DNA from: a virus
Virus record (IMG/VR): IMGVR_UViG_3300023174_000001
Location: 1 to 64,000 of that record
Reading direction: 5' to 3' (one strand)
DNA length: 64,000 nt
Shown: piece by piece, positions 587 through 53,916 of the stretch
Layout: each line of letters begins with the position of its first letter
Position numbering within the stretch: the first letter of the stretch is position 1
Translations under genes and position numbers: made by a program
Notes under the pieces: model-generated
What the model was told of the DNA's origin: nothing
Database searches by the model: none
Seen by the model: only the letters and a program-made list of their open reading frames with translations

Positions 587-1702
587 ATGGCTACTCAAGA
601 ATATGCTGCTAGCATCCAAGGTGTGTCAATCCGTGTTACACGCCTAGACGCTGCTGGCAACCTACTAAACGGGGCTGGAGACTCTTACACTACTTCAGCC
701 TTTATGCGTGTCTCATTCACCCCTGAATATGAAGAGGGCGATGAAATTACCGAAAAGTCAGCAAACGGTACCGTTTGTGTAACTTACAAGGCTCCAGATA
801 CTTTGAAGCGTATCACTATGGAACTTGCCATCTGTGAACCAGACTCTGAACTTTCACAACTACTGTCTGGAGGTCTACTTCTTCGTAAGACCGTAGATGG
901 CGTTGTAAAGAGCGTTGGTTGGGCAGCCCCTGGTGTTGGAGACGACCCAGCAGGTTTTGGTGTCGCTATTGAGGCTTGGTCTCACGCAGTAAAGGATGGT
1001 AAGCGTGCTTCTGTATTGCCTTACTTCCACTGGGTATTCCCATATGCTAAGTTGCGTCAGTCTGGTGACCGTGTAATTGAAAACGGTATGCTAGCCACAA
1101 CTTTTGAAGGCTATGGTCTTGGAAACCGCAACTTTGAGTCTGGTGTAGATGGTCGCTGGGAGTTCCCAGTAGCAGCAGAACGCCCTTACTCATATGCTCG
1201 TACTTCTTGGGCTCCAGTTGGTCTACAAGGCTTCTACACTTGGACTGACAACTCTACCGACCAGCAGTTCTTTACCGCTGGTGGAAACATTCAGGGTCAG
1301 ACTACTCCATACATTACTCAGGTTAATGCTAGCGGAACCACTGCAACAGTTATCTTCAGTGCGGCCCACAACCTTGCTACCAACGACAAGATTTATGTAT
1401 CTGGTGCTGGTGAACCGTTCAACACAATCACTTCTGGTGTTCTTGCTACGAATGTTAACGCCACTGCTATCTCGTACACGATTCCAAACTCGTTTACTGG
1501 TACAGCAACTCTTGACAAGTTCAGCAGACTACAAGTTGTTGATGCTATCACCGAGAACGCTGCTTACACCGCAGTCACCACAGCAGCAATTGACACCAAG
1601 TACGCTAACGGTGCTGGTGAGGACACTTACAATGTTCCTGGAAGCCTATCATTTGTTGCTGACAACAATGTTGACTTCATTATCAAGTCAAACGAAGACT
1701 AA
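587..1702 (+). CDS. Major tail (tube) protein, copy 1
   Basis: 371 aa, with Shine-Dalgarno AAGGA ahead of the ATG. The N-terminal 200 residues (SFTPEYEEGDEI, YKAPDTLKRITMELAICEP) match what I know of actinophage major tail proteins, which polymerise into the tail tube around the tape measure. Residues about 245-300 hold a beta module (TATVIFSAAHNLATNDKIYV). The C-terminal 65 residues, ending NNVDFIIKSNED, return to a core sequence shared with the next gene. Copy 2 follows after 15 bp, and their first 180 residues differ at only one position (F124 here, N124 there), although the DNA differs at many synonymous sites. Which copy dominates in the tube cannot be told from sequence. Confidence 0.85.
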   Translation: MATQEYAASIQGVSIRVTRLDAAGNLLNGAGDSYTTSAFMRVSFTPEYEEGDEITEKSANGTVCVTYKAPDTLKRITMELAICEPDSELSQLLSGGLLLRKTVDGVVKSVGWAAPGVGDDPAGFGVAIEAWSHAVKDGKRASVLPYFHWVFPYAKLRQSGDRVIENGMLATTFEGYGLGNRNFESGVDGRWEFPVAAERPYSYARTSWAPVGLQGFYTWTDNSTDQQFFTAGGNIQGQTTPYITQVNASGTTATVIFSAAHNLATNDKIYVSGAGEPFNTITSGVLATNVNATAISYTIPNSFTGTATLDKFSRLQVVDAITENAAYTAVTTAAIDTKYANGAGEDTYNVPGSLSFVADNNVDFIIKSNED

Positions 1703-1717
1703 GGAGAAAAAGTCTAA

Positions 1718-3055
1718 ATGGCTACCCAAGAATACGCAGCAAGCATCCAAGGTGTATCTATTCGAGTTACTCGTCTAGACGCTGCTGGAAACTTGCTTAA
1801 TGGTGCTGGTGACTCGTACACCACTTCTGCGTTTATGCGTGTGTCTTTCACACCAGAGTACGAAGAAGGTGACGAAATCACTGAGAAGAGTGCTAACGGA
1901 ACTGTATGTGTAACATACAAGGCTCCTGACACTCTAAAGAGAATTACTATGGAGTTGGCTATTTGTGAGCCAGACTCTGAACTTTCTCAGTTGCTTTCTG
2001 GTGGTCTATTGCTTCGCAAAACAGTTGACGGAGTTGTAAAGTCTGTTGGTTGGGCTGCTCCAGGCGTAGGTGATGACCCTGCTGGTAATGGCGTTGCCAT
2101 TGAAGCGTGGTCACACGCTGTAAAAGACGGAAAGCGTGCAAGCGTTCTTCCATACTTCCACTGGGTATTTCCTTACGCAAAACTTCGTCAGAGTGGTGAC
2201 AGAGTTATTGAAAATGGTATGTTGGCAACCACATTCGAGGGTTACGGTCTAGGAAACAAGAACTTTGGTTCTGCTGTTGATGGCCGTTGGGAATTCCCTG
2301 TTGCTGCTGAAAGACCATACTCTTACTCAAGAGCATCTTGGGCACCTATCGGGCTTGCTGGCTTCTACACTTGGACTGACCAGGCTTCTTACCAGAAGTT
2401 CTTTACCAAGTCTGCAATTCAGGGTGCTACCACTATTGCTGTTGACAGCATTTACGGTGTATCCAATGTTGCTACTGTAACTCTAAGCAATACTGCTACT
2501 AATGCTGGAATTGTTACTGGAGACCTAATCTATGTAAACAACTGTGGCGAGCCTTTCAATACGGCAACTATTGGTACAGCAATCACGGTGTTGGGAGACC
2601 AGACCGCTTCTGCAAATGTGGCTGTTTCAAATGCGACAATCACTGTTGCTAGCACTACTGGTTATGTAGTTGGTCAGTCTATTGCTAAGGTTTCTGGAGG
2701 GGCAACAATGGCAAATACTACAATTGCTTCGATTGTGAATGCTACCGCATTTACAGTTACTGGGGCACCTACTGGTGCTGGAAACTTAGTGTTTAGCATT
2801 GCTGGCGGAAATGCGTTCTACTACACAACTAACGCAAACCTTTCAGCAAACCTAACAGCAACGCTGGACAAGTACAGTCGTGTTAGCCTAGTTGACAGTC
2901 TGACTGAGGCTGGTTCATACACAGCAGTTACTACCACTGATATTGACACTAAGTATGCTAACGGTGCTGGTGAAGATACCTACAATGTTCCTGGCAACTT
3001 GAACTATGTATCTGACAACAATGTTGACTTCATTATCAAGTCAAACGAGGACTAA
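1718..3055 (+). CDS. Major tail (tube) protein, copy 2, longer insertion
   Basis: 445 aa, with Shine-Dalgarno AAGGAG. The N-terminal tube domain is nearly identical to copy 1, and the C-terminal core is again shared (DTKYANGAGEDTYNVPG, NNVDFIIKSNED). Between them, residues about 245-380 form a longer Ala/Thr/Val-rich beta insertion than in copy 1, apparently two modules (VTGDLIYVNNCGEPFNT, then TTGYVVGQSIAKVSGG). Tail tube proteins of siphophages often carry such surface domains on the outside of the tube. The pair may build a mixed tube in two display formats, or one copy may be a minor form; both are inference. A strong hairpin follows the stop codon. Confidence 0.85.
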   Translation: MATQEYAASIQGVSIRVTRLDAAGNLLNGAGDSYTTSAFMRVSFTPEYEEGDEITEKSANGTVCVTYKAPDTLKRITMELAICEPDSELSQLLSGGLLLRKTVDGVVKSVGWAAPGVGDDPAGNGVAIEAWSHAVKDGKRASVLPYFHWVFPYAKLRQSGDRVIENGMLATTFEGYGLGNKNFGSAVDGRWEFPVAAERPYSYSRASWAPIGLAGFYTWTDQASYQKFFTKSAIQGATTIAVDSIYGVSNVATVTLSNTATNAGIVTGDLIYVNNCGEPFNTATIGTAITVLGDQTASANVAVSNATITVASTTGYVVGQSIAKVSGGATMANTTIASIVNATAFTVTGAPTGAGNLVFSIAGGNAFYYTTNANLSANLTATLDKYSRVSLVDSLTEAGSYTAVTTTDIDTKYANGAGEDTYNVPGNLNYVSDNNVDFIIKSNED

Positions 3056-3067
3056 TAGTTAGATAGA

Positions 3068-3111
3068 AAGGCGGCGAGATTGGTTGATTTTCTTCCAATT
3101 CTCGTCGCCTT
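3068..3111 (+). terminator. Stem-loop after the tail tube genes
   Basis: The left arm at 3068-3083 (AAGGCGGCGAGATTGG) pairs with 3095-3111 (CCAATTCTCGTCGCCTT) with one mismatch and one bulge. No T-tract follows, so it may act as an attenuator or 3'-end stabiliser after highly expressed tail genes and not as a full terminator. Confidence 0.6.
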
Positions 3112-3132: not shown

Positions 3133-4239
3133 ATGACTGCTTTATGGATTCAACCAGAAGAGTTAGGTGATTACGCCAACTCTGAGTTTGCTCTAGAGGC
3201 TGCTAAGACTGCTTCACACTTGTTGTGGGCTATGTCTGGTCGTAAATATTCTGGCGAGACTGTCGTTACCGAGCGTTATACCTGCGTAATTCGTCGTTCT
3301 CGTCTTGGTGCGTCAAATAAAAACACAGACGGAGTTTTGTTTGGTGGAACTGTATATAATATTCCATCGTCTGATTTTGACTATGACGGATATGCTTCAC
3401 TAACCGTTGATGGTATCTCACCTGAGTCTCGTATCAAACTTCGTGGCGGACCAGTTACAAGAGTTATTACAGTCAGAAACCGTAATGGTGAATTGGTGGA
3501 CCCATCTAGTTACTACTTAGTAGACCACTCCACTTTACATGTGAGCCTAGCCACCCCTTGGACACCTTGTAATACTGAAATTACTTATGCTTATGGTCAG
3601 AACCCACCGACATCTGGAAAGATGGCGGCACGCACTTTGGCAATTGAATTTGCCAAACTTTGGTCTGATGATGAGACTTGTGCTCTCCCGCAGCGTGTAA
3701 CTTCTGTCTCTCGGCAGGGTGTTTCTTTCACTATTCTTGACCAGCAGGACTTTATTCAAGAATTGCGTACTGGTCTCTATGCTGTTGACTTGTTCTTAAA
3801 AACTGTCAATCCAGATGGTGCTAGAAGGAAAACTAAGGTCTATTCAGTAGACACTCCAAGAGCCAGAAGGTACAACCCTAAAGCACTTGTTTATACGACT
3901 GGCACTAAGGACTTGATAGTTCCACCTGGTACTGGCAATACTGGCTCTACTACTCTAGGGCTAGCAAATATCAATGCTACTTTTTTGACTAGCCAAGCAG
4001 GTTGGACACCAGCACTGACGCTGAAAAGCCACTCAGGTGCTAAGTCTTTAACCTTGAGTAATGCCTCGGCAAATGTAAATACTAATGCTTCTACCATTAC
4101 TTTGTCTGCTGGTTATTCAGACACTTTGGCAACAATCGGTATGGTAGACCCAGGCACTTGGGACTTGTATGCCACCCACACAAACAACAGCGTTGTGCTA
4201 ATCACATCAGGAAACCTAAAAATCAACCTAAATGGTTAG
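3133..4239 (+). CDS. Head-to-tail adaptor/connector protein with C-terminal beta domain
   Basis: 368 aa. The N-terminal 250 residues (LGDYANSEFALEAAKTASHL, then a beta-rich centre and an acidic helical end) resemble the gp6/gp15-type connector proteins of actinophages that sit under the portal and open the path for DNA. The last 100 residues are unlike this: a Thr/Ser/Asn-rich beta segment (GAKSLTLSNASANVNTNAS) that seems to be an added surface domain like those in neighbouring virion proteins. The gene order is odd, because the tail tube genes precede the adaptor here, while most siphophages place them after the completion proteins. Start ATG has AAGGA 8 nt upstream. Confidence 0.6.
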   Translation: MTALWIQPEELGDYANSEFALEAAKTASHLLWAMSGRKYSGETVVTERYTCVIRRSRLGASNKNTDGVLFGGTVYNIPSSDFDYDGYASLTVDGISPESRIKLRGGPVTRVITVRNRNGELVDPSSYYLVDHSTLHVSLATPWTPCNTEITYAYGQNPPTSGKMAARTLAIEFAKLWSDDETCALPQRVTSVSRQGVSFTILDQQDFIQELRTGLYAVDLFLKTVNPDGARRKTKVYSVDTPRARRYNPKALVYTTGTKDLIVPPGTGNTGSTTLGLANINATFLTSQAGWTPALTLKSHSGAKSLTLSNASANVNTNASTITLSAGYSDTLATIGMVDPGTWDLYATHTNNSVVLITSGNLKINLNG

Positions 4240-4277: not shown

Positions 4278-4502
4278 ATGACACACATTCAAACAAACTT
4301 TACTGCTGAAGCAATGAACACTGGTAAAAAGACAGATGCTGTAGTAGCACCTGTAGAGGCAGAGCCTAAGAAAAAGGTAGAGCCTGAGCCTGTTGCTGAA
4401 GTTGTAGTAGAGACTCCAGTTGTTGAAGAAGTTGTAGTAGTCGAAGAGACTTCAGTTGTCGAAGAGACAGTTGTAGTTGAAGAGGCTCCACTAGCCGAAT
4501 AG
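4278..4502 (+). CDS. Small acidic Val/Glu repeat protein
   Basis: 74 aa. After a short polar N-terminus, residues about 24-70 are a low-complexity run of Val, Glu, Pro and Ala with repeats such as VVEETSVVEETVVVEE, strongly negative overall. I do not recognise a family. The position between connector and tail-completion genes suggests a small virion or assembly factor, perhaps a flexible extension or a charge-based chaperone. The repeat is visible in DNA as GTTGTAGT/GTCGAAGAG units, so the copy number could vary between strains by slippage. No Shine-Dalgarno is obvious; TACAAT lies upstream in the intergenic gap. Confidence 0.5.
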   Translation: MTHIQTNFTAEAMNTGKKTDAVVAPVEAEPKKKVEPEPVAEVVVETPVVEEVVVVEETSVVEETVVVEEAPLAE

Positions 4503-6403: not shown

Positions 6404-9400
6404 ATGCCAGTCGTAGGTGAAGCCCATATTATCGTTAGGGCCATTACAACCAATGTTGCTAAAGACATTAATAAAGGTTTTAATGGCGTAAGCGGTTCGG
6501 GCGGAAAAAATGCTGAAAAGGCTGGACAAGACCTATCCTCTAGATTTATGAGGGGTTGGAATAAAGAAATGGACACCAACCCATTCACAAAACTCTCTAA
6601 TGCCTTAAAAGAAATGAACCCAGCCGCCGAGCAGGGATATAACGCAATTAATGAATTAATTGTAAAAGGCTATAAGGGTGCTACAATGGCTTCCGTTTTT
6701 GGTGGCTCAATTGGTGTAATAATAGGTGCACTTGTATCTTTAGTTGCTGCGGCTGCTGGTGCTGCTACTGCTTTGACAGCAGTAGTTGGATTATTTGTAT
6801 CTATGAAAGCAGCCACGGCTGTTGCAAAGATGGCATTTAATGGTGTTGGAGAAGCAGTACAACAAGCAACACAGCAACAAAAAGTTCAAGTACAAACTTT
6901 ACAAGATTTACGAGAAGAACTTCAACAATTAAAGTTTGATGCTGAAGACGCTGCTTTAGCCGAGGAACAGGCTGCTATATCTTTAGAAAAAGCCCGTGAA
7001 GGTCTTGCTAGAACTGCTGATTTACCAGCCGACAGTCGTGCTCGTCGTGAAGCAGAACTTGCTTACAAGCAAGCAGAACTAAACTATCGCCGTGCTAAAG
7101 ATAGAAGTGCTGACCTAAATAAAGAACTAAAGACTGGGGCAAAGGCTAGAGCAAAGGCTGCTGCCAATGACCCGTATGCCAACCTTACCGAGACTCAAAA
7201 AAGTTTTGCCAAGTTCCTTGTAAAACTACAGCCTATTTTTAAAACTCTTAGAGAAGCCGTTGCCAAGGGGTTCTTGCCACTGCTACAAGCAGGTTTGACA
7301 AAACTTATGACTTCTGGCACTTTCAATGACATTTTTAATGGCATTAAAAATATTGGTGCTGCTTTGGGCAAGGCTTCAAAAGTACTGTTTGACTTCTTTT
7401 CTTCCGCCGAGGCTGGCAGATATCTAAGAGAAATCTTTGACATGATTTCTGGAGTTGTGAAAGAATTTGGCCCTATTCTTTCTAAATTCTTTAAATCTTT
7501 CCTAAAAATTCTTGCTGCTTCTGCTCCTATCACTCGAAGGCTTGCCGAGTTTATTTCTAAATTGCTCGGTGATTTCAATGCTTTATTGGATAGAACTGGA
7601 GATATCGGGCTTAGAAGATTCTTTATTACAGCCGCTGATATGGCTGGTAAATTTGGCAAAATTTTTGGCAATATCTTTGGCGGGTTTGCCAAAATTGTTG
7701 AGGCAAACTTTGGTCCAGGCACTGGTGGTGATTATCTACTCAACTGGCTGATTGAGGCTACTCAAGGTTTTGGCACCATGGGTAAGAGCGGTGGTCAATT
7801 AAAGCAATTCTTTAATGATGTTGCCGTAAACGCTAAGAAGATGTTTAGTGGCATTGGTAGCATTATCAAGCAAATTGTATTAATTGGTGCTGACCCAAAC
7901 ATTGGTGAATTTTTTGTAAGAATTAAAAAGGCTGCTCCTGCTTTTAGTAGCATTTTGAAAAAGGCTGGTCAAGCACTACCTACCGTGGCTGATTTGATTG
8001 TAAAAATTGTTGAAATCATTGACAAAATGACTGACAATGCTGCTATTGAAAACTTTTTTAAGACTCTACTTGCTGGTGCCGATAAGTTCTACAAACTTAT
8101 AAGTAATCCTGTTATTCAAAGTATTCAAAGTTTTACTGGTCAAATTCACGCTGTAACTTTAGGTATTTTAGAACTTTACAAAAAAGGTAAGCCATTATTT
8201 GACTTTTTGTACACAGGATTCCGAAAAGTAAACGGAGCCGTAGGTGGAATTTTTAATTTCTTTAGGGCTAATAAAGAAACTATAAAAAATATTTTTGGTA
8301 AAGATGCAGTCAAAACAATAAAAACAATGACTGGTACCGTCACAAATATGAAAGACAAAATTGCCAAAACTATGGCAAGTTTCAAAAAAAGTGCGGAGTT
8401 TGTAAAGTTTGGTCCAAAATTAGCAAAGGGTCAGGCTGATGGTAGGTCTAGAGACTATACGGGTGTTTTAAAAAATACTCGTGGTGCTGCTGCCATGAAA
8501 AATGTCTCTGAGAAAACAAGAAAATTGTTGGCTGCCGATAGCGGTGCTTTAAGTAATTTCTGGGGAAAAGTCAGGCTACAGTACGAAATGGCTATGCTGA
8601 GAATGAAGTTGTACTTCAAGGGGGCCAGAAGCGGATTTGCCAAAATGAAGGTTCAGGGCTCAAGCACTTTAGCCACTCTTGACAGAAGATTCATACAAAT
8701 GACCAAAAGCACAAATAAATCTATTGCTGCTTTTGGTAGGTTGGGCAGAGCAATGACATTCCTGCTTAGAAACCCAATACTACTTGCAATTGGTTTACTA
8801 ATAGCGGCATTTGTCCTTCTTTACACAAAGAATGAAAAGTTTAGAAATGCCATTAATGACACTTTCAAACCAGCCCTAGACGCTTTGGGTGAAGCATTTA
8901 GAGTAATTATGCTTGCTCTACAGCCAGTAATCAATGCTTTCAAAGTTCTTATGAAAACTTTGATGGGCGGTGAAAACGGAGACGGTCAAGGTCCGCTTGT
9001 AAAATTCTTTATAATGCTGACAGACATCATAAGTCAACTAATACAAATGTTAGCACCTCTAATTGCTCAGTTAGTGACAAAACTTGCTCCAGTTATAGAA
9101 CAACTAATTTTGGCTTTGGTACCAATAGTAGAAGTAATTATGAAGATATGGTTTACTATTCAAGGTGCACTAATGAAAGTCATTATGACTCTTGTGCCGA
9201 TAATTCTAAAACTTGTTACGGTATTGGTTGACATGCTTATGCCAGTATTTGACGCTTTAATACAGTTCTTGTTGCCAATAATTAAATACATTGGATTGCT
9301 CTTTGAATTGATTGGTGCTGGGCTTGACCTCCTAATGACTGGAGATATGGACACATTCCAAAAAAAGTTTGCGGAAATTGGTCAATCAATAGTACAAACT

Positions 9401-27594: not shown

Positions 27595-28575
27595 ATGAAT
27601 GACAAAACTACAAACGAAGTAGAAATTTCCGTTGAAGAAAAGAAGCCTTACACGCTTTCTAACTCGGAAATTCAAGTATTCAAAGATTGTCGTCGCAAGT
27701 GGTGGCTCGGTTATTACCGTCGCCTACAGCCACGCCAAAAACAATTTACTGGTGCTCTTGCCTTAGGTTCTCGTGTTCACGAGGCTTTGGATATGCACTA
27801 CTCAAGTGGACAAGACTTGCTAGAGGCTCACTCACAACTTGTAGAGCGGGACATAGCAAAACTTGTTGCTGAGTATCGTGATACTTATGACCTTGAGGCA
27901 GAAGCCGAACTAGGTCGCATTATGCTTGAGGGCTATCTTGAGTGGATGGCAACCGAAGGTATTGATGCTGACCTCGAAATGATTTCTACTGAAGAGATTA
28001 TTCAGATGCCATTGTTTGATGGCGAAGTTGTTCTTCAAGGTAAGTTGGATATGCGTGTTCGTCGTAAGTCTGATGGCGTGCGTATGTTCCGTGACTTCAA
28101 AACTGTTGGTGGTTCGTTTGCGGATTTTGCTAACCAAGCACAGATGAATGAACAGATTCTTACTTATATGCTTTTGGAATCTGCCCAGAACAAAAAACCT
28201 GAAGAACGCTCCGAGGGCGGTATCTTCACTATGCTAAAAAAAGTAAAGCGAACAGCAAATGCTCGCCCACCGTTCTACGAGCAGATTGAAGTCCGCCACA
28301 ACCAGTACACAATGCGTTCTTTCTGGCAAAGAATTCACGGTACTATCTCTGACCTAATGGGTGTCAAAAAAAATCTTGATGCTGGGGCAGACCCTAATTT
28401 TGTCGCTTACCCAAGTCCCGGCAAGGACTGCAAGTGGAAGTGTCAGTTCTACACTATTTGCCCGCTTATCGACGACGGTTCCGCCGCCGAGGCAGCAATC
28501 AGTGAGATGTACGAGGTCGCCGACCCGTATGGTTATTACAAATCAGAAGACGAAAAGAAAGGTAGTGAGAACTAA
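27595..28575 (+). CDS. Cas4/RecB-like PD-(D/E)XK exonuclease with Fe-S cysteines
   Basis: 326 aa. LSNSEIQVFKDCRRKWWLGY starts the fold, with the first Cys; LQGKLDMRVRR followed by MFRDFKTVGG is the GxxD...D-x-K catalytic core; and DCKWKCQFYTICPL gives three more Cys near the C-terminus, the pattern that binds a 4Fe-4S cluster in Cas4/AddB-type nucleases. It probably resects DNA ends for the Sak4-like annealing system encoded next, whose start overlaps this stop by one base. No CRISPR repeats are seen in this window, so a Cas role is not suggested. Confidence 0.85.
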   Translation: MNDKTTNEVEISVEEKKPYTLSNSEIQVFKDCRRKWWLGYYRRLQPRQKQFTGALALGSRVHEALDMHYSSGQDLLEAHSQLVERDIAKLVAEYRDTYDLEAEAELGRIMLEGYLEWMATEGIDADLEMISTEEIIQMPLFDGEVVLQGKLDMRVRRKSDGVRMFRDFKTVGGSFADFANQAQMNEQILTYMLLESAQNKKPEERSEGGIFTMLKKVKRTANARPPFYEQIEVRHNQYTMRSFWQRIHGTISDLMGVKKNLDAGADPNFVAYPSPGKDCKWKCQFYTICPLIDDGSAAEAAISEMYEVADPYGYYKSEDEKKGSEN

Positions 28576-29333
28576 TGTCACAAGTACATCGTTCCCTAAC
28601 TCTTATGGTCTATGGCGAGTCAAAGGTTGGTAAATCAACTTTTGCTGTCACAGCACCATACCCTCGCCTAATGCTAGATGTTGAGGGTGGACACCGTTTC
28701 CTACCTATCAATGTGAAGTATTGGGACCCAATGCGTGAAGAGCCACCTGTGGCTGACGGCACTTGGGACACCGTAGTTGTTCAGGTTCGTGACTACGATG
28801 TAGTCCTAAAAGCGTTCCAGTGGCTACAGTCAGGTAAGCACCAGTTCAAGTCGCTTATCATTGACTCCATTTCAGAACTTCAAGTGAAGTGTATGGACAA
28901 CATCGCTGGTACAGAGCAGATGAAGATGCAACAGTGGGGTGAACTACTTCGCCACATGGGGCACCTACTTCGTGACTTGCGTGACCTTACTTCGCACCCT
29001 ACTCAGCCGTTAGAGGCTGTGGTTATGACTGCTATGGCTAGCCGTGGTCAGGATAACCGTATGCACCCTTATCTACAAGGTCAGTTGAAAGTTCAGGCAC
29101 CGTATTTCTACGATGTCCTTGGCTACATCTCTAACGAAACTATTCCAAACCCAGACCCAACTCAATTGCCTTACAAGGCACGCCGTATGTATGTGGAACG
29201 CACGGATGAAGTTGAGGCTGGAGAGCGTGTTCAAGGTCGTCTTGGTGCTATTGTTGAGCAAGAAAACCTTGGCGTTGAGCGTATGCTCGATATGATTTTC
29301 GGTGTAAAGACCGAGAAAAAGAAGTCGGCTTAG
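28575..29333 (+). CDS. Sak4-like RecA-fold ATPase (recombinase)
   Basis: 252 aa. Walker A GESKVGKST at residues 14-22, a Walker B-like strand FKSLIIDSISEL near 95-106, and the compact RecA-like core place it with Sak4/AAA_24 phage ATPases, which promote single-strand annealing together with a cognate SSB. The partner genes agree: Cas4-like nuclease upstream and SSB-like protein 46 bases downstream. The C-terminal 40 residues are charged (VEAGERVQGRLGAIVEQE). It overlaps the upstream gene by one base. Confidence 0.8.
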   Translation: MSQVHRSLTLMVYGESKVGKSTFAVTAPYPRLMLDVEGGHRFLPINVKYWDPMREEPPVADGTWDTVVVQVRDYDVVLKAFQWLQSGKHQFKSLIIDSISELQVKCMDNIAGTEQMKMQQWGELLRHMGHLLRDLRDLTSHPTQPLEAVVMTAMASRGQDNRMHPYLQGQLKVQAPYFYDVLGYISNETIPNPDPTQLPYKARRMYVERTDEVEAGERVQGRLGAIVEQENLGVERMLDMIFGVKTEKKKSA

Positions 29334-42566: not shown

Positions 42567-43852
42567 TATGTTAATCCGTTACCGCTAATAATCCAAGTAG
42601 TGCCAGTTGTCTTTACTGCTGTAGCCATACCGTTGGCAGCAAGAGTTCTAGTTCCAGTAGTTCCAGCACCTGCTAAATACATTGTGTCTGTAGTAATAGC
42701 AATAGATAGTGAAACGGATGGGGCAGTAATAAATGTAAGAGTTGTTCCGATTTCAAAAGCCACATTCGTGTTGGCTGGAATAGTGTGAGTCAACGCTGTA
42801 GTAGTTGTGTAAATATGTTTACCAGCGTGTGTTGCCAGAATTGCGGTGTTGGCGGATACAGAAATTTGAGGTAGGCCAATGTAGCCAGCCGTGCTTGCTG
42901 ATGTAGCAGCGACAGCGTTGGCTGGAGTAATGGTTGGGGTAGTTCCAAATACAAGAACACCCGTACCAGTTTCGTCAGAGATAACACCTGCTAGTTGAGC
43001 AGAGGTAGTTGCTGCGTAGTAAGTGTTGCTCAGAGTTGGTTGAATCCAGAACGGAGCGTTAGTGCTTGAGTTGAAAGCAAGTGTTGAGTTATTTGTGGCT
43101 GTTCTTGCTAAGTAGGTTGTTGTATTTGCTGCTGATTGATATGGCAATGAGCCAGCAGCACCGCCCAAAACATTTGATGTTGAGCCAGATGTGGCGACAT
43201 TTAGGTTTGCTACTTGTGTTGTAGATGTAACTGTAAATGGGGCTGTGCCAGTAGCCACATTTGAGACAAATGACGGTGCTGTAACTGAGCCTGGGAATAA
43301 AGTATTTCCAGAGCCATCAAGAATGGTTGCAGTTCTTGCTAGCGTTGTAAATACGCCAGTATATTGTCTTACATAGATTGGCTCGGTGCCATCGTCTGCG
43401 GTTGCAAGTTCCACAAAACCTGCGTTTGTGGCAGTTCCACCAATACGAATTCTGAATTGGTCGTTGTCTGCCATGTTTCCATAAACAAGGTCAGTGGAGT
43501 TAGTTCCTGTAACAGTATTTATCACATAGCCAGATGTAGCAACATTTAGGTTGGCTACTTGTGTTGTTGAAGATACGGTAAACGGTGCGGTGCCTGTAGC
43601 GATGGTAGATGTAAATGTACCGCTTGTATTTACACCGCTAGTGTTAGAGACAACCAAAGCGTTGGTGATTGTTCCACCGTTAAATACCGCTGCTTGATAG
43701 CCAAGTGAAGCCCATGCGGTTGACCCAGTTCCAATTTTAAACTTTTGAGTGTCAGTTTCAAAGCCAATTTCACCAGCAGCCAAAGTTGGATTAGTGCTAG
43801 TCCAGTTTGCTGCGGTGTCTCTACGAACTTGAAGTTTAGTAGATACAGCCAT
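42566..43852 (-). CDS. Tail fibre protein, short form
   Basis: 428 aa. The N-terminus, TKLQVRRDTAANWTSTNPTL then AAGEIGFETDTQKFKIGTGS, is the attachment module common to many phage fibres and shared with the 687-aa fibre at 44109. The rest is Ala/Thr/Ser/Val beta repeat; the unit TAPFTVSSTTQVANLNVATS occurs twice with small changes. There is no obvious C-terminal lectin domain. The stop overlaps the ATG of the Ig-like protein gene. It probably mediates receptor choice; the repeats suggest frequent recombination. Confidence 0.75.
   Translation of the reverse strand: MAVSTKLQVRRDTAANWTSTNPTLAAGEIGFETDTQKFKIGTGSTAWASLGYQAAVFNGGTITNALVVSNTSGVNTSGTFTSTIATGTAPFTVSSTTQVANLNVATSGYVINTVTGTNSTDLVYGNMADNDQFRIRIGGTATNAGFVELATADDGTEPIYVRQYTGVFTTLARTATILDGSGNTLFPGSVTAPSFVSNVATGTAPFTVTSTTQVANLNVATSGSTSNVLGGAAGSLPYQSAANTTTYLARTATNNSTLAFNSSTNAPFWIQPTLSNTYYAATTSAQLAGVISDETGTGVLVFGTTPTITPANAVAATSASTAGYIGLPQISVSANTAILATHAGKHIYTTTTALTHTIPANTNVAFEIGTTLTFITAPSVSLSIAITTDTMYLAGAGTTGTRTLAANGMATAVKTTGTTWIISGNGLT
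43731..43780. repeat. 50-bp exact repeat, copy A (fibre attachment module)
   Basis: The 50 bases here are identical to 46033-46082. Both lie at the same place in the N-terminal attachment module of two fibre genes (GEIGFETDTQKFKIG). Flanking bases differ, so it forms a short island of identity able to support homologous exchange between the fibres. Confidence 0.85.
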
Positions 43853-44108: not shown

Positions 44109-46172
44109 TTAAGCGGCTCCACCGTCAATTGTAACTGCAAACAGTGTACCAGTGTTAGAGAGAGACATCAGTGTTGTGGTTCCGTCTCCAGCAAATGCTT
44201 GAATTAGGTTAGCAGTTCCAGCAGTAGCGTTTGCTCTTACAGCAAATGCTAATACATCGCTTGACACATTGATGCGTTGGGTGGTTGTGAAAGTTGTGGC
44301 ATAAGCAGCGTTTGTATTTACGGTTACAGCACCTGTAGAACCAGATACGGTAATACCGTTTCCAGCAACAAGGCTAGTTACACCAGATGATGCTGGGGTT
44401 ACCCAAGCGGGTACACCAGAAGTAATTGTAAGTACTTGGCTGTTATTTGCTGTTGAATAGGCCAACTGTGATGTGGTGTTTGCAGTTCCGTTGTAGAAAA
44501 TAACATTTGCCACACCAACAATGTTGGTAGCAAGGTTAGCGGAGGCTGACCTTAGGTTTGTTACTTCGGTTGTGGATGTTACGGTTATAGCATTTGCAGC
44601 AAACACATTGGCTGTAATGCTTCCGTTTGTGTCACGAACTGCAACGGTGTTGGCAGTGGCTGCTGTTGCTGTGTTGTAGCCATCTAGAAGGTCAGCGTTA
44701 AGGTTAGTAACTACTGTTGTAGATGCTACAGACAGAGGTGCTGTACCAGTTGTTTGAGTAGAAATCAACTGACCAGTAACATTTAGGCTGGTTCCAGTAG
44801 CAGCACCAAGTACAGGTGATACAAAGGTCGGGGTATTGTTCAATACAACCGCACCTGTACCTGTTACTGTGGTGAAGTCCGCGAGACGGGCATCCCAGTT
44901 GGCTGCTGTAGTTCCTGCTGTTGCAACACAAGTTAGAAGTACAGAAGTGTTAGCGGGTACTGTAATTACTTGGTTTCCACCAGAAGAGTTGACTGTCAAA
45001 ATTCCAGTGCTTCTATTCATAATATAGAAGGACCATCCAGTTGATAGTGTGCTAGTTACTGGAAGACCGACTGTTTGAGTAGTTGAGCCAGTAAATTGCT
45101 GGAAATAAGTACTTGTGCTGGTAAGAGTTGTGGTAGCGGCAGCGGTGGCAGTTGTTGAGTAACCTGTTAAAGCAGCCATTGTCTGCGTCGGGTTCAACCA
45201 AGCAGGAGCATTTGTTGAAGTGTTGTAGGAAAGAATAGAGTTGTTTACGGTTGCAACGGCAACTTTAGATGTGGTGTTGACGGCAGACTGATAAAGAAGT
45301 TGACCTTCATTTGCTGCTCCACCAGTAACATTGGCAGTAAGCGTTGAGACACCAGTTAGGTTTGCGGTGATTGTTCCAGCAGAGAAGTTTCCAGATGCAT
45401 CGCGGGCAACAATTGTCGAAACTGTGTTGGCATCGGTGATTGACTTACCTAGAACTTGGCTGGCAGAAAGAACGGTTGTACCGTTGATTTCATAAACTTT
45501 TCCAGATGCAAGGTCTATATCTTCTGAAGATGTCCAAGCAGCAGTTGCGTTTACCCAGTTTAAGGTCTTGTCGGTAGAACCCTTTACTGTAAGGCCAGCA
45601 CCGTCAGCGGTGACATTTGTTGCTCCGCCAATGTCCACTGTTGCGGTTGTGCAGGTTACTCCTTGATTAACAGAAACTCTAAATGCTGTTGCATTTGTGA
45701 TTGAAGTAATGGTTCCAGTAGTAAAGGTGCCTGTATTTTGAGTAACGGTCTGCCCAATTATAAGACCAGTGGTGTTGCTAGTAATAATAGTGTTGTTATT
45801 TGCTGTGGTTTCTACTGTTCTACCAAGAATTGCTGCTACAGAACCAAGTTCAATGTTCTTGTCGTCTACTTGAAGAGTAGAAGAGTTAAGTGAGGTAGTT
45901 GTACCGTTTACAGTTAGGTTTCCGCCAACGACAACATCGCCAGAAGTAGTAAGGCTTGTGATGCTGGCAGCACCTGCTAGGAGGGAGGCATCTTGTGAGT
46001 ACTTCAGGTTTCCCCAAAGTGTCCCCGTAACACCAATTTTAAACTTTTGAGTGTCAGTTTCAAAGCCAATTTCACCAGCAGCGAGAACAGGTGTAGCACC
46101 TGCTGCGGTTTGTGCGGTGACCCAGTTGGCAGCGGTATCTCTACGAAGTTGAATTTTAGTTAAAGCAGCCAT
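44109..46172 (-). CDS. Tail fibre protein, long form
   Basis: 687 aa. The same N-terminal module as the short fibre (KIQLRRDTAANWVTAQTAAG, GEIGFETDTQKFKIGVTGTL) is followed by VGGNLTVNGTTTSLNSSTLQ and VDDKNIELGSV, a motif of many fibre shafts that precedes beta-helix repeats. Much of the remainder is Ala/Thr/Asn/Val repeats (TNLNADLLDGYNTATAA). The C-terminal 60 residues (FAVRANATAGTANLIQAFAG) look like a knob. Long fibres like this recognise host glycan. It lies 20 bases upstream of the 77-aa coiled-coil gene in the same transcript. Confidence 0.75.
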   Translation of the reverse strand: MAALTKIQLRRDTAANWVTAQTAAGATPVLAAGEIGFETDTQKFKIGVTGTLWGNLKYSQDASLLAGAASITSLTTSGDVVVGGNLTVNGTTTSLNSSTLQVDDKNIELGSVAAILGRTVETTANNNTIITSNTTGLIIGQTVTQNTGTFTTGTITSITNATAFRVSVNQGVTCTTATVDIGGATNVTADGAGLTVKGSTDKTLNWVNATAAWTSSEDIDLASGKVYEINGTTVLSASQVLGKSITDANTVSTIVARDASGNFSAGTITANLTGVSTLTANVTGGAANEGQLLYQSAVNTTSKVAVATVNNSILSYNTSTNAPAWLNPTQTMAALTGYSTTATAAATTTLTSTSTYFQQFTGSTTQTVGLPVTSTLSTGWSFYIMNRSTGILTVNSSGGNQVITVPANTSVLLTCVATAGTTAANWDARLADFTTVTGTGAVVLNNTPTFVSPVLGAATGTSLNVTGQLISTQTTGTAPLSVASTTVVTNLNADLLDGYNTATAATANTVAVRDTNGSITANVFAANAITVTSTTEVTNLRSASANLATNIVGVANVIFYNGTANTTSQLAYSTANNSQVLTITSGVPAWVTPASSGVTSLVAGNGITVSGSTGAVTVNTNAAYATTFTTTQRINVSSDVLAFAVRANATAGTANLIQAFAGDGTTTLMSLSNTGTLFAVTIDGGAA
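46033..46082. repeat. 50-bp exact repeat, copy B (fibre attachment module)
   Basis: Identical to 43731-43780. It encodes the same residues in the same frame of the long fibre gene. A crossover between the copies would join one fibre attachment module to the other shaft and delete about 2.3 kb. Confidence 0.85.
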
Positions 46173-52690: not shown

Positions 52691-53035
52691 GGGGATGCCT
52701 GGTTTCGACTGGGAGACTTTAGTATGGTGAAGCACGCAGAGATGGCGGTCTCTCTTGAACCCGCTAAAACAATAAATGCTGAATCTCGTTCCGCATTCGC
52801 TCTTGCTGCGTAATCTTTAGTTAGGTTGCGTTCGCATTTGCCCCTAGAAAAGCAGTAGTTCTCGCTGGGCATCTAGGTTTCAAATAAAGAGAACAACCAA
52901 AGCCACGCAAGTGGAACGGTCTAGTGGCACTGCCGACCTGAAACGCAGTGTGTAGCAAACCGTGGCTGGTAAGCCTAAGCGTGTAGAAGAACATATAAAC
53001 CTTTCAGGACAGGGGTTCGACTCCCCTCATCTCCA
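52691..53035 (+). ncRNA. ssrA: tmRNA (one-piece, phage-encoded)
   Basis: 345 nt. The tRNA-like ends match: GGGGATG at 52691-52697 pairs with CATCTCC at 53028-53034 with one G-T pair, and GGGGTTCGACTCCCC forms the T arm. CCA is not encoded. The tag begins at GCT 52763 and reads AKTINAESRSAFALAA to TAA 52811-52813; the 16-residue length and AFALAA end are like the Streptomyces tag. Pseudoknot-forming G/C segments follow. It rescues stalled ribosomes and marks products for proteolysis with host SmpB, for which no gene is seen here. tmRNA is known from a few actinophages. Confidence 0.95.
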
Positions 53036-53094
53036 CGCTTGCAGACAAAGAGAGCGTACAGCGGTCTGCCCAGCCTAGGTAATGGAAACTCTCA

Positions 53095-53843: not shown

Positions 53844-53914
53844 GCGTGTGTAGTTCAATGGTAGAACTCCAGTTTTCCAAACTGGTAGCGTAGGTTCGAT
53901 TCCTACTACACGCT
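53844..53914 (+). tRNA. tRNA-Gly (anticodon UCC)
   Basis: 71 nt. Acceptor GCGTGTG pairs with TACACGC (one G-T). D arm GTTC...GAAC, anticodon arm CCAGT-TTTCCAA-ACTGG with UCC, T arm GTAGG-TTCGATT-CCTAC, discriminator T. CCA is not encoded. It decodes GGA (and GGG), a codon the phage genes use often. Located at the 3' end of the structured-RNA unit, just before its terminator. Confidence 0.95.
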
Positions 53915-53916
53915 CG

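Follow-up and report, generated by a model that had tools for sequence, protein, structure and literature searches.

Tandem duplicates are expected to vanish quickly through recombination, in phages above all, and laboratory recoding of repeated genes is used to stop such recombination. Duplicated genes kept near-identical in protein are known from calmodulin. In yeast histones, the identity of paralogues has been attributed to gene conversion (PMC4700949). SPP1 makes two major tail proteins, gp17.1 and gp17.1*, from one gene by a frameshift, at a 3:1 ratio (PMC8718954). Here we describe two adjacent genes for major tail proteins (MTPs), MTP-A and MTP-B (hereafter A and B), of a lake phage, in a stretch of 64,000 nucleotides (the window) that forms the start of the 135,069-base viral contig IMGVR_UViG_3300023174_000001 in IMG/VR. 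The tube domains of the two proteins are almost identical, while their synonymous sites are scrambled. Comparison with relatives shows the pair to be a genuine and uncommon product of evolution. Searches of open-licence papers turned up no account of tail-tube genes in tandem whose codons are scrambled, of natural recoding or of such synonymous divergence of duplicates.

The Tandem Genes and Their Products

A and B are two complete genes with their own starts and Shine-Dalgarno sites and are arranged as one operon. The parts of the pair are listed below.

587-1702, plus strand: MTP-A, the upstream major tail (tube) protein, 371 amino acids (phrog_792 major tail protein, E 9e-24; AlphaFold model)
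587-1135, plus strand: tube domain of A (codons 1-183), frozen (2 of 183 residues and 62 of 95 fourfold sites differ from B)
1247-1513, plus strand: A-type variable insert, a probable outward decoration domain (insert divergence; confident beta-rich block in the model)
1703-1717, plus strand: gap of 15 nucleotides between A and B with the Shine-Dalgarno motif GGAG for B (read from the sequence)
1718-3055, plus strand: MTP-B, the downstream major tail protein, 445 amino acids, the synonymously accelerated copy (phrog_792, E 4e-22; Foldseek; synonymous depth 2.6 times that of the sisters)
1718-2266, plus strand: tube domain of B (codons 1-183), frozen (2 of 183 residues and 62 of 95 fourfold sites differ from A)
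2378-2866, plus strand: B-type variable insert, longer, a probable outward decoration domain (insert divergence; confident beta-rich block in the model)

PHROGs assigns both products to the same major tail protein family. No Pfam match and no solved structure were found for them by sequence. The AlphaFold models have a mean predicted local distance difference test score of 77 for A and 75 for B. In Foldseek, the top matches of the A model are the tail tip and connector chains of Bxb1, with other tail tube proteins lower, and the B model matches the Douge connector, the HFTV1 tail and the lambda tube protein V. Whole-chain template modelling (TM) scores are low (0.2-0.5), although tail tube proteins are the best likeness. 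As modelled, both proteins have the beta-sandwich fold of tube proteins. The differing part of the two is an insert ahead of a C-terminal segment common to A and B. Inserts of A and B differ at about 50% of amino acids in all five genomes compared, yet at only 6-28% among A copies and 14-33% among B copies; judged by these alignments, there are thus two stable isoforms.

Distribution of the Pair

Scans of IMG/VR with the tube domain, the head-tail adaptor encoded downstream of B and a distant tail protein yielded some 240 loci. Among these, the tandem pair is restricted to phages with an adaptor that shares 91% identity or more with that of the window, about eight related phages in all. The set consists of the window, L004, L005, L007, L008 (=L009, L010) and L011/L012, together with L006 and L013, whose contigs start just before B. 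A junction-pattern scan returned the same tandem contigs and no further ones, and the A-B junction is kept in 10 contigs, every one from the tandem clade. Since the pair is present in contigs of several metagenomes, an assembly artefact is ruled out. In L007 (IMGVR_UViG_3300008117_000049), the frame of MTP-A is shifted near residue 245 and the gene reads in two pieces, which is either a sequencing error or a real loss of A.

The nearest outside groups (L098, L101, L104 and L105; adaptor 74-77% identical) are single-copy, as are the phrog_792 isolates DSL-LC01, Pumpernickel, Mimi and Sixama, and 127 distinct single-copy relatives lack the tandem pair. A search of 84,980 bacterial and archaeal genomes with the MTPs found no relative, and no DNA-level match to B was found in 50,697 phage records. 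Related genomes were also to be compared according to a preliminary description of the stretch; in this comparison the pair is shared by one clade, no relative has one copy with the same codons, and the single-copy relatives have other codons. Going by their sequences, A and B are paralogous copies, in tandem, of the gene for the major tail (tube) protein, and they are confined to a single small clade of aquatic, actinophage-like viruses with genomes of circa 135 kb. They arose most simply by a single duplication in the ancestor of this clade.

A Frozen Protein with Scrambled Codons

The near-identity of the proteins and the divergence of their codons, both noticed in the preliminary description, are confirmed by the codon counts. 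Among codons 1-58 of the window's A and B, 25 are identical and 33 differ, all synonymously, with no nonsynonymous change. Over codons 1-180, 75 are identical, 104 differ synonymously and one differs nonsynonymously (F124N), so that 179 of 180 residues are identical. By codon position the differences number 15/5/103, the longest identical run is 17 nucleotides, and the change is spread across the whole tube domain. The proportion of synonymous differences (pS, Nei-Gojobori) between A and B over 183 codons is 0.81 in the window and 0.76-0.87 in all tandem genomes. Values of A-B pairs above 0.75 leave the synonymous rate dS undefined (saturated), and this saturation rules out a recent duplication. 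Gene conversion as the cause of the protein identity is likewise ruled out over the tube domain, where synonymous states are not shared. Paralogues of one genome do not share synonymous states as concerted evolution would have it, with the exception of the 3' end in the window genome.

The extent to which this pattern departs from ordinary divergence was assessed with 8001 pairs drawn from the 127 single-copy tube domains, comparing protein difference with fourfold divergence. The smallest protein difference is 5.3% (mean 17.6%) for single-copy pairs at a fourfold divergence of 0.5-0.6, and 7.0% (mean 18.7%) at 0.6-0.8. Within-genome A-B pairs differ by 1.1-3.3% in protein at a fourfold divergence of 0.57-0.74. 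The A/B pattern is an outlier against all of these pairs and lies beyond chance, and ordinary old paralogues with normal protein divergence are ruled out.

The purifying selection on the protein that the preliminary description suggested is supported, and the freeze is seen in each copy separately. Tube domains of A copies, and likewise those of B copies, differ among themselves by 1.6-2.7% in protein at a fourfold divergence of 0.3-0.5, against single-copy means of 12-15%. Omega lies at 0.010-0.029 among A copies and among B copies, compared with 0.03-0.10 for single-copy relatives. The freeze of the tube domain is about 5-8 times stronger than in single-copy relatives of equal synonymous divergence. 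The neighbouring adaptor is not frozen, with 5-6% protein difference at a fourfold divergence of 0.36-0.40 in the tandem clade versus 7-10% at 0.42-0.43 in single-copy phages. The freeze therefore affects the tube domain of the tandem clade, in both copies, and not the adaptor.

A and B of the same genome were also compared with A and B of different genomes by permuting the A-B pairings of five genomes. Within-genome pairs differ at fewer amino acids (18, where permuted pairings average 21.6; P 0.033) and at more codons synonymously (535, where they average 513; P 0.017). As a signal, this excess and deficit are suggestive only. A joint protein change is seen in L005, in which both copies have proline at residue 2 (A2P), encoded by CCT in A and CCA in B.

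Synonymous Acceleration of MTP-B

Synonymous depth was estimated at the third positions of codons that are conserved, on a tree in which L098/L101/L104/L106, which have the most similar adaptors, form the sister group of the tandem clade. Counted from the split and relative to these sisters, B has a depth of 2.61 (bootstrap 1.80-3.86), A one of 1.23 (0.77-1.90) and the adaptor one of 1.00 (0.72-1.50), and the probability that B does not exceed the adaptor is 0.0001. The synonymous stem of B measures 0.90, compared with 0.34 (adaptor) and 0.31 (A). Control genes have relative depths of 0.82 (capsid), 1.29 (upstream gene), 0.85 and 0.89 (two downstream genes) and 1.27 (a saturated segment of the tape measure). 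In a larger tree, the third-position stems of A (0.37) and B (0.63) are both above those of all 50 comparable single-copy clades (maximum 0.24). B is the longest synonymous branch in all four placements tried, with an excess estimated at 1.4- to 2.8-fold.

The acceleration of B persists at Ala/Gly/Val codons (2.3 times), whose usage is alike in B and single-copy genes, and at all fourfold codons. A shift in codon usage is thus ruled out as its sole cause. Serine codons point the same way. A change between the TCN and AGY codons of serine takes two changes via another amino acid. Such switches are found at 33% of the shared serines between A and B, at 0% between A copies and at 2% between B copies. 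They amount to 11% in single-copy pairs with a fourfold divergence of at least 0.5 (95th percentile 30%), which makes A-B three-fold enriched.

The 3' End and the Genomic Surroundings

The preliminary description also reported that the 3' ends of A and B, unlike the rest, are almost identical in DNA.

1659-1695, plus strand: exact match of 37 nucleotides to 3012-3048, in the C-terminal end of A, from a probable recent local B-to-A transfer
3012-3048, plus strand: partner of this match in B, matching 1659-1695

The near-identity is real, with 37 nucleotides matching exactly, and appears to reflect a recent conversion-like event rather than a segment spared from recoding. The match is absent from the other tandem genomes and from the close relative L004, which has the same first 183 residues of A and a different C-terminus of A, and its absence there points to a recent and local event. 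It is best read as a B-to-A transfer confined to the window genome, and not as a constant of the pair. As this conversion-like event suggests, DNA may still pass between the copies.

Two adjacent genes further along the window may bear on such exchange.

27652-28464, plus strand: phage exonuclease (PDDEXK_1), which may be a source of recombination pressure (PF12705, E 1e-23; phrog_1218 exonuclease)
28596-29228, plus strand: Sak4-like single-stranded DNA annealing protein, adjoining the exonuclease (PF13479, E 8e-19; phrog_124 Sak4-like)

Together they (27652-29228) are likely a recombination module and a plausible source of recombination that may act on the tail gene pair. RecA, RecT and ERF families were searched for in the genome and none was found; the Sak4-like protein was found instead.

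The end of the contig overlaps its beginning inside the gene upstream of MTP-A, and the 135-kb phage genome thus appears complete and circularly closed. The gene order is a major capsid candidate (L253:5315-7333, by its place and relatives), one further gene, MTP-A, MTP-B, the head-tail adaptor (phrog_783, 3133-4239), more tail genes and the tape measure (at 6404). Both MTPs accordingly sit between the major capsid and the adaptor and tape-measure genes, the position expected for the tail-tube family. One further element adjoins B.

3068-3111, plus strand: strong hairpin directly 3' of B, terminator-like or mRNA-stabilising (-30.1 kcal/mol, z -5.2)

A small open reading frame (4278-4502), lying between the adaptor and the tail gene that follows it, is rich in Val/Glu/Pro repeats. 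The window also encodes a phage transfer-messenger RNA (52691-53036), whose tag peptide reads AESRSAFALAA, and after it a tRNA-Gly(TCC) (53844-53915). Copies at 43183 and 43528, 345 bases apart, form another repeat of the window, besides the direct repeat considered below.

Possible Origins of the Pattern

In our best explanation, to which we would give an even chance, the protein is frozen because two isoforms assemble together in a single tube, and the codons were scrambled by selection acting against DNA homology. A and B would be decoration isoforms that both go into the same tube, and any change in the tube domain would have to fit A-A, A-B and B-B contacts. After the split, the codons of mainly B changed faster than in single-copy relatives until no shared synonymous history was left, a change that would have taken place mostly soon after the duplication. 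Identical tandem copies would presumably recombine, with the exonuclease and Sak4-like pair taking part, and one of them would be lost. Lineages in which the copies had drifted apart in DNA would have kept both, and selection would in this manner have "recoded" the pair. Selection possibly stops the twin genes from recombining each other away. The specific claim of natural recoding is that selection against tandem recombination drove the synonymous burst in one copy and still keeps the copies apart in DNA, with the tube domains identical in protein. We advance this claim tentatively, at somewhat less than an even chance.

The preliminary description compared the pattern to natural recoding that removes DNA homology. 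The long synonymous branch of B, the serine switches and the within-genome excess agree with that comparison, and several other observations weigh against it. The codon identity between A and B equals that of shuffled synonymous codons (z -1.8 to +1.1) and is not clearly below random; for A or B versus single-copy relatives, codon sharing is retained (z 0.4 to 4.1 against shuffles). Identical runs between A and B are not shortened, the longest being 15-20 nucleotides, the same as in shuffles. In a 2x2 test of retained ancestral codons, the A-B odds ratio is 1.00, which is independence, versus control medians of 2.6-4.0, and the same test stratified by site conservation gives no evidence of avoidance. 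The codon bias of B is partly relaxed, its usage having moved half of the way to the average of the genome and its score lying halfway between single-copy tail genes and the adaptor; such relaxation by itself raises the synonymous rate. The placement of A and B among the sisters differs between data, third positions favouring A and B apart (approximately unbiased (AU) test of the paired topology, 0.08) and protein favouring them together, and with B branching outside the two sister groups its acceleration would be only about 1.4-fold. The permutation test rests on five genomes, two of which (the window and L004) are close kin, and its effect is a few codons per pair. Furthermore, the same genome tolerates a direct repeat, 43731-43817 and 46033-46119, with a spacing of 2.3 kb and with about 50 identical bases at the start of its copies.

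Many of these observations would also be expected of an old duplication of the histone/calmodulin type, in which purifying selection holds the protein, synonymous sites drift to saturation and B evolves faster through lower expression and relaxed codon bias, with no selection on DNA similarity. Besides the shuffled-like codon identity, the unshortened runs and the intermediate bias of B, this reading can point to the protein freeze, which alone accounts for the low protein difference, and to the crown rate of B, which is near normal. In conserved paralogues of this kind the synonymous rate would not be raised above background; B is at 2.6 times its sisters and the adaptor at 1.0, and even the least favourable placement leaves B at about 1.4 times. 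The stem of B is 2.6 times that of the adaptor (P 0.003), though the bias of the adaptor is already relaxed. The accelerated Ala/Gly/Val codons, the enriched serine block switches and the within-genome synonymous excess also stand against it. We regard an old duplication of this type as a serious possibility, roughly a one-in-three matter.

A very improbable alternative is that B was acquired laterally, without duplication, from a phage lineage outside the sample in which this tube protein is written in other codons. Third positions alone would place B by L029/L113-type and A by L098/L101-type genes (AU 0.88, versus 0.08 for A and B together with the sisters), but the protein data favour pairing A with B and reject a position of B outside the two sister groups (AU 0.043). 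No single-copy pair at such a synonymous distance has proteins so similar, and a fast synonymous branch in B after the transfer would still be needed. Selection might instead have acted not on DNA homology but on how a minor isoform is expressed or on its RNA (speed of translation, timing, mRNA structure). This would fit B's own codon preferences (ATT, AAA, TTG and AGA up) and its partly relaxed bias, but is likewise very improbable, as amino acids with unchanged usage are also accelerated and the change extends over the whole domain.

Comparison with Known Systems

The phrog_792 proteins of the actinophages DSL-LC01, Pumpernickel, Sixama and Mimi belong to the same family and occupy the same place between a capsid-side gene and the head-tail adaptor, but they are single-copy. 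With duplicated histone, ribosomal-protein and calmodulin genes, A and B share a near-identical protein with saturated synonymous sites (179 of 180 residues, pS 0.81). Those genes encode paralogues of a tight complex, and A and B may likewise co-assemble. In contrast to them, A and B lie side by side as direct repeats of a phage genome, with a faster synonymous branch in one copy. The explanation given for yeast histones does not carry over, since conversion would copy synonymous sites too; those of the A and B tube domains are fully scrambled, and conversion therefore cannot be the cause there.

As in laboratory recoding, the protein is the same and the DNA homology is removed; here the recoding would be natural, as read from sequence comparison. 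A pair that is kept, with its protein frozen and its codons scrambled, provides a natural and countable case in which to ask whether selection acts on DNA similarity itself.

The likeness to gp17.1 and gp17.1* of SPP1 lies in two tube isoforms with a common tube domain and a differing part that, in the present proteins, is predicted to face outward. Unlike in SPP1, the isoforms come from two genes without a frameshift, the shared part is written in different codons, and the differing part is an insert before the shared C-terminal segment. If this reading is true, the tandem pair represents a second route, besides frameshifting, to two tail-tube isoforms in one phage.
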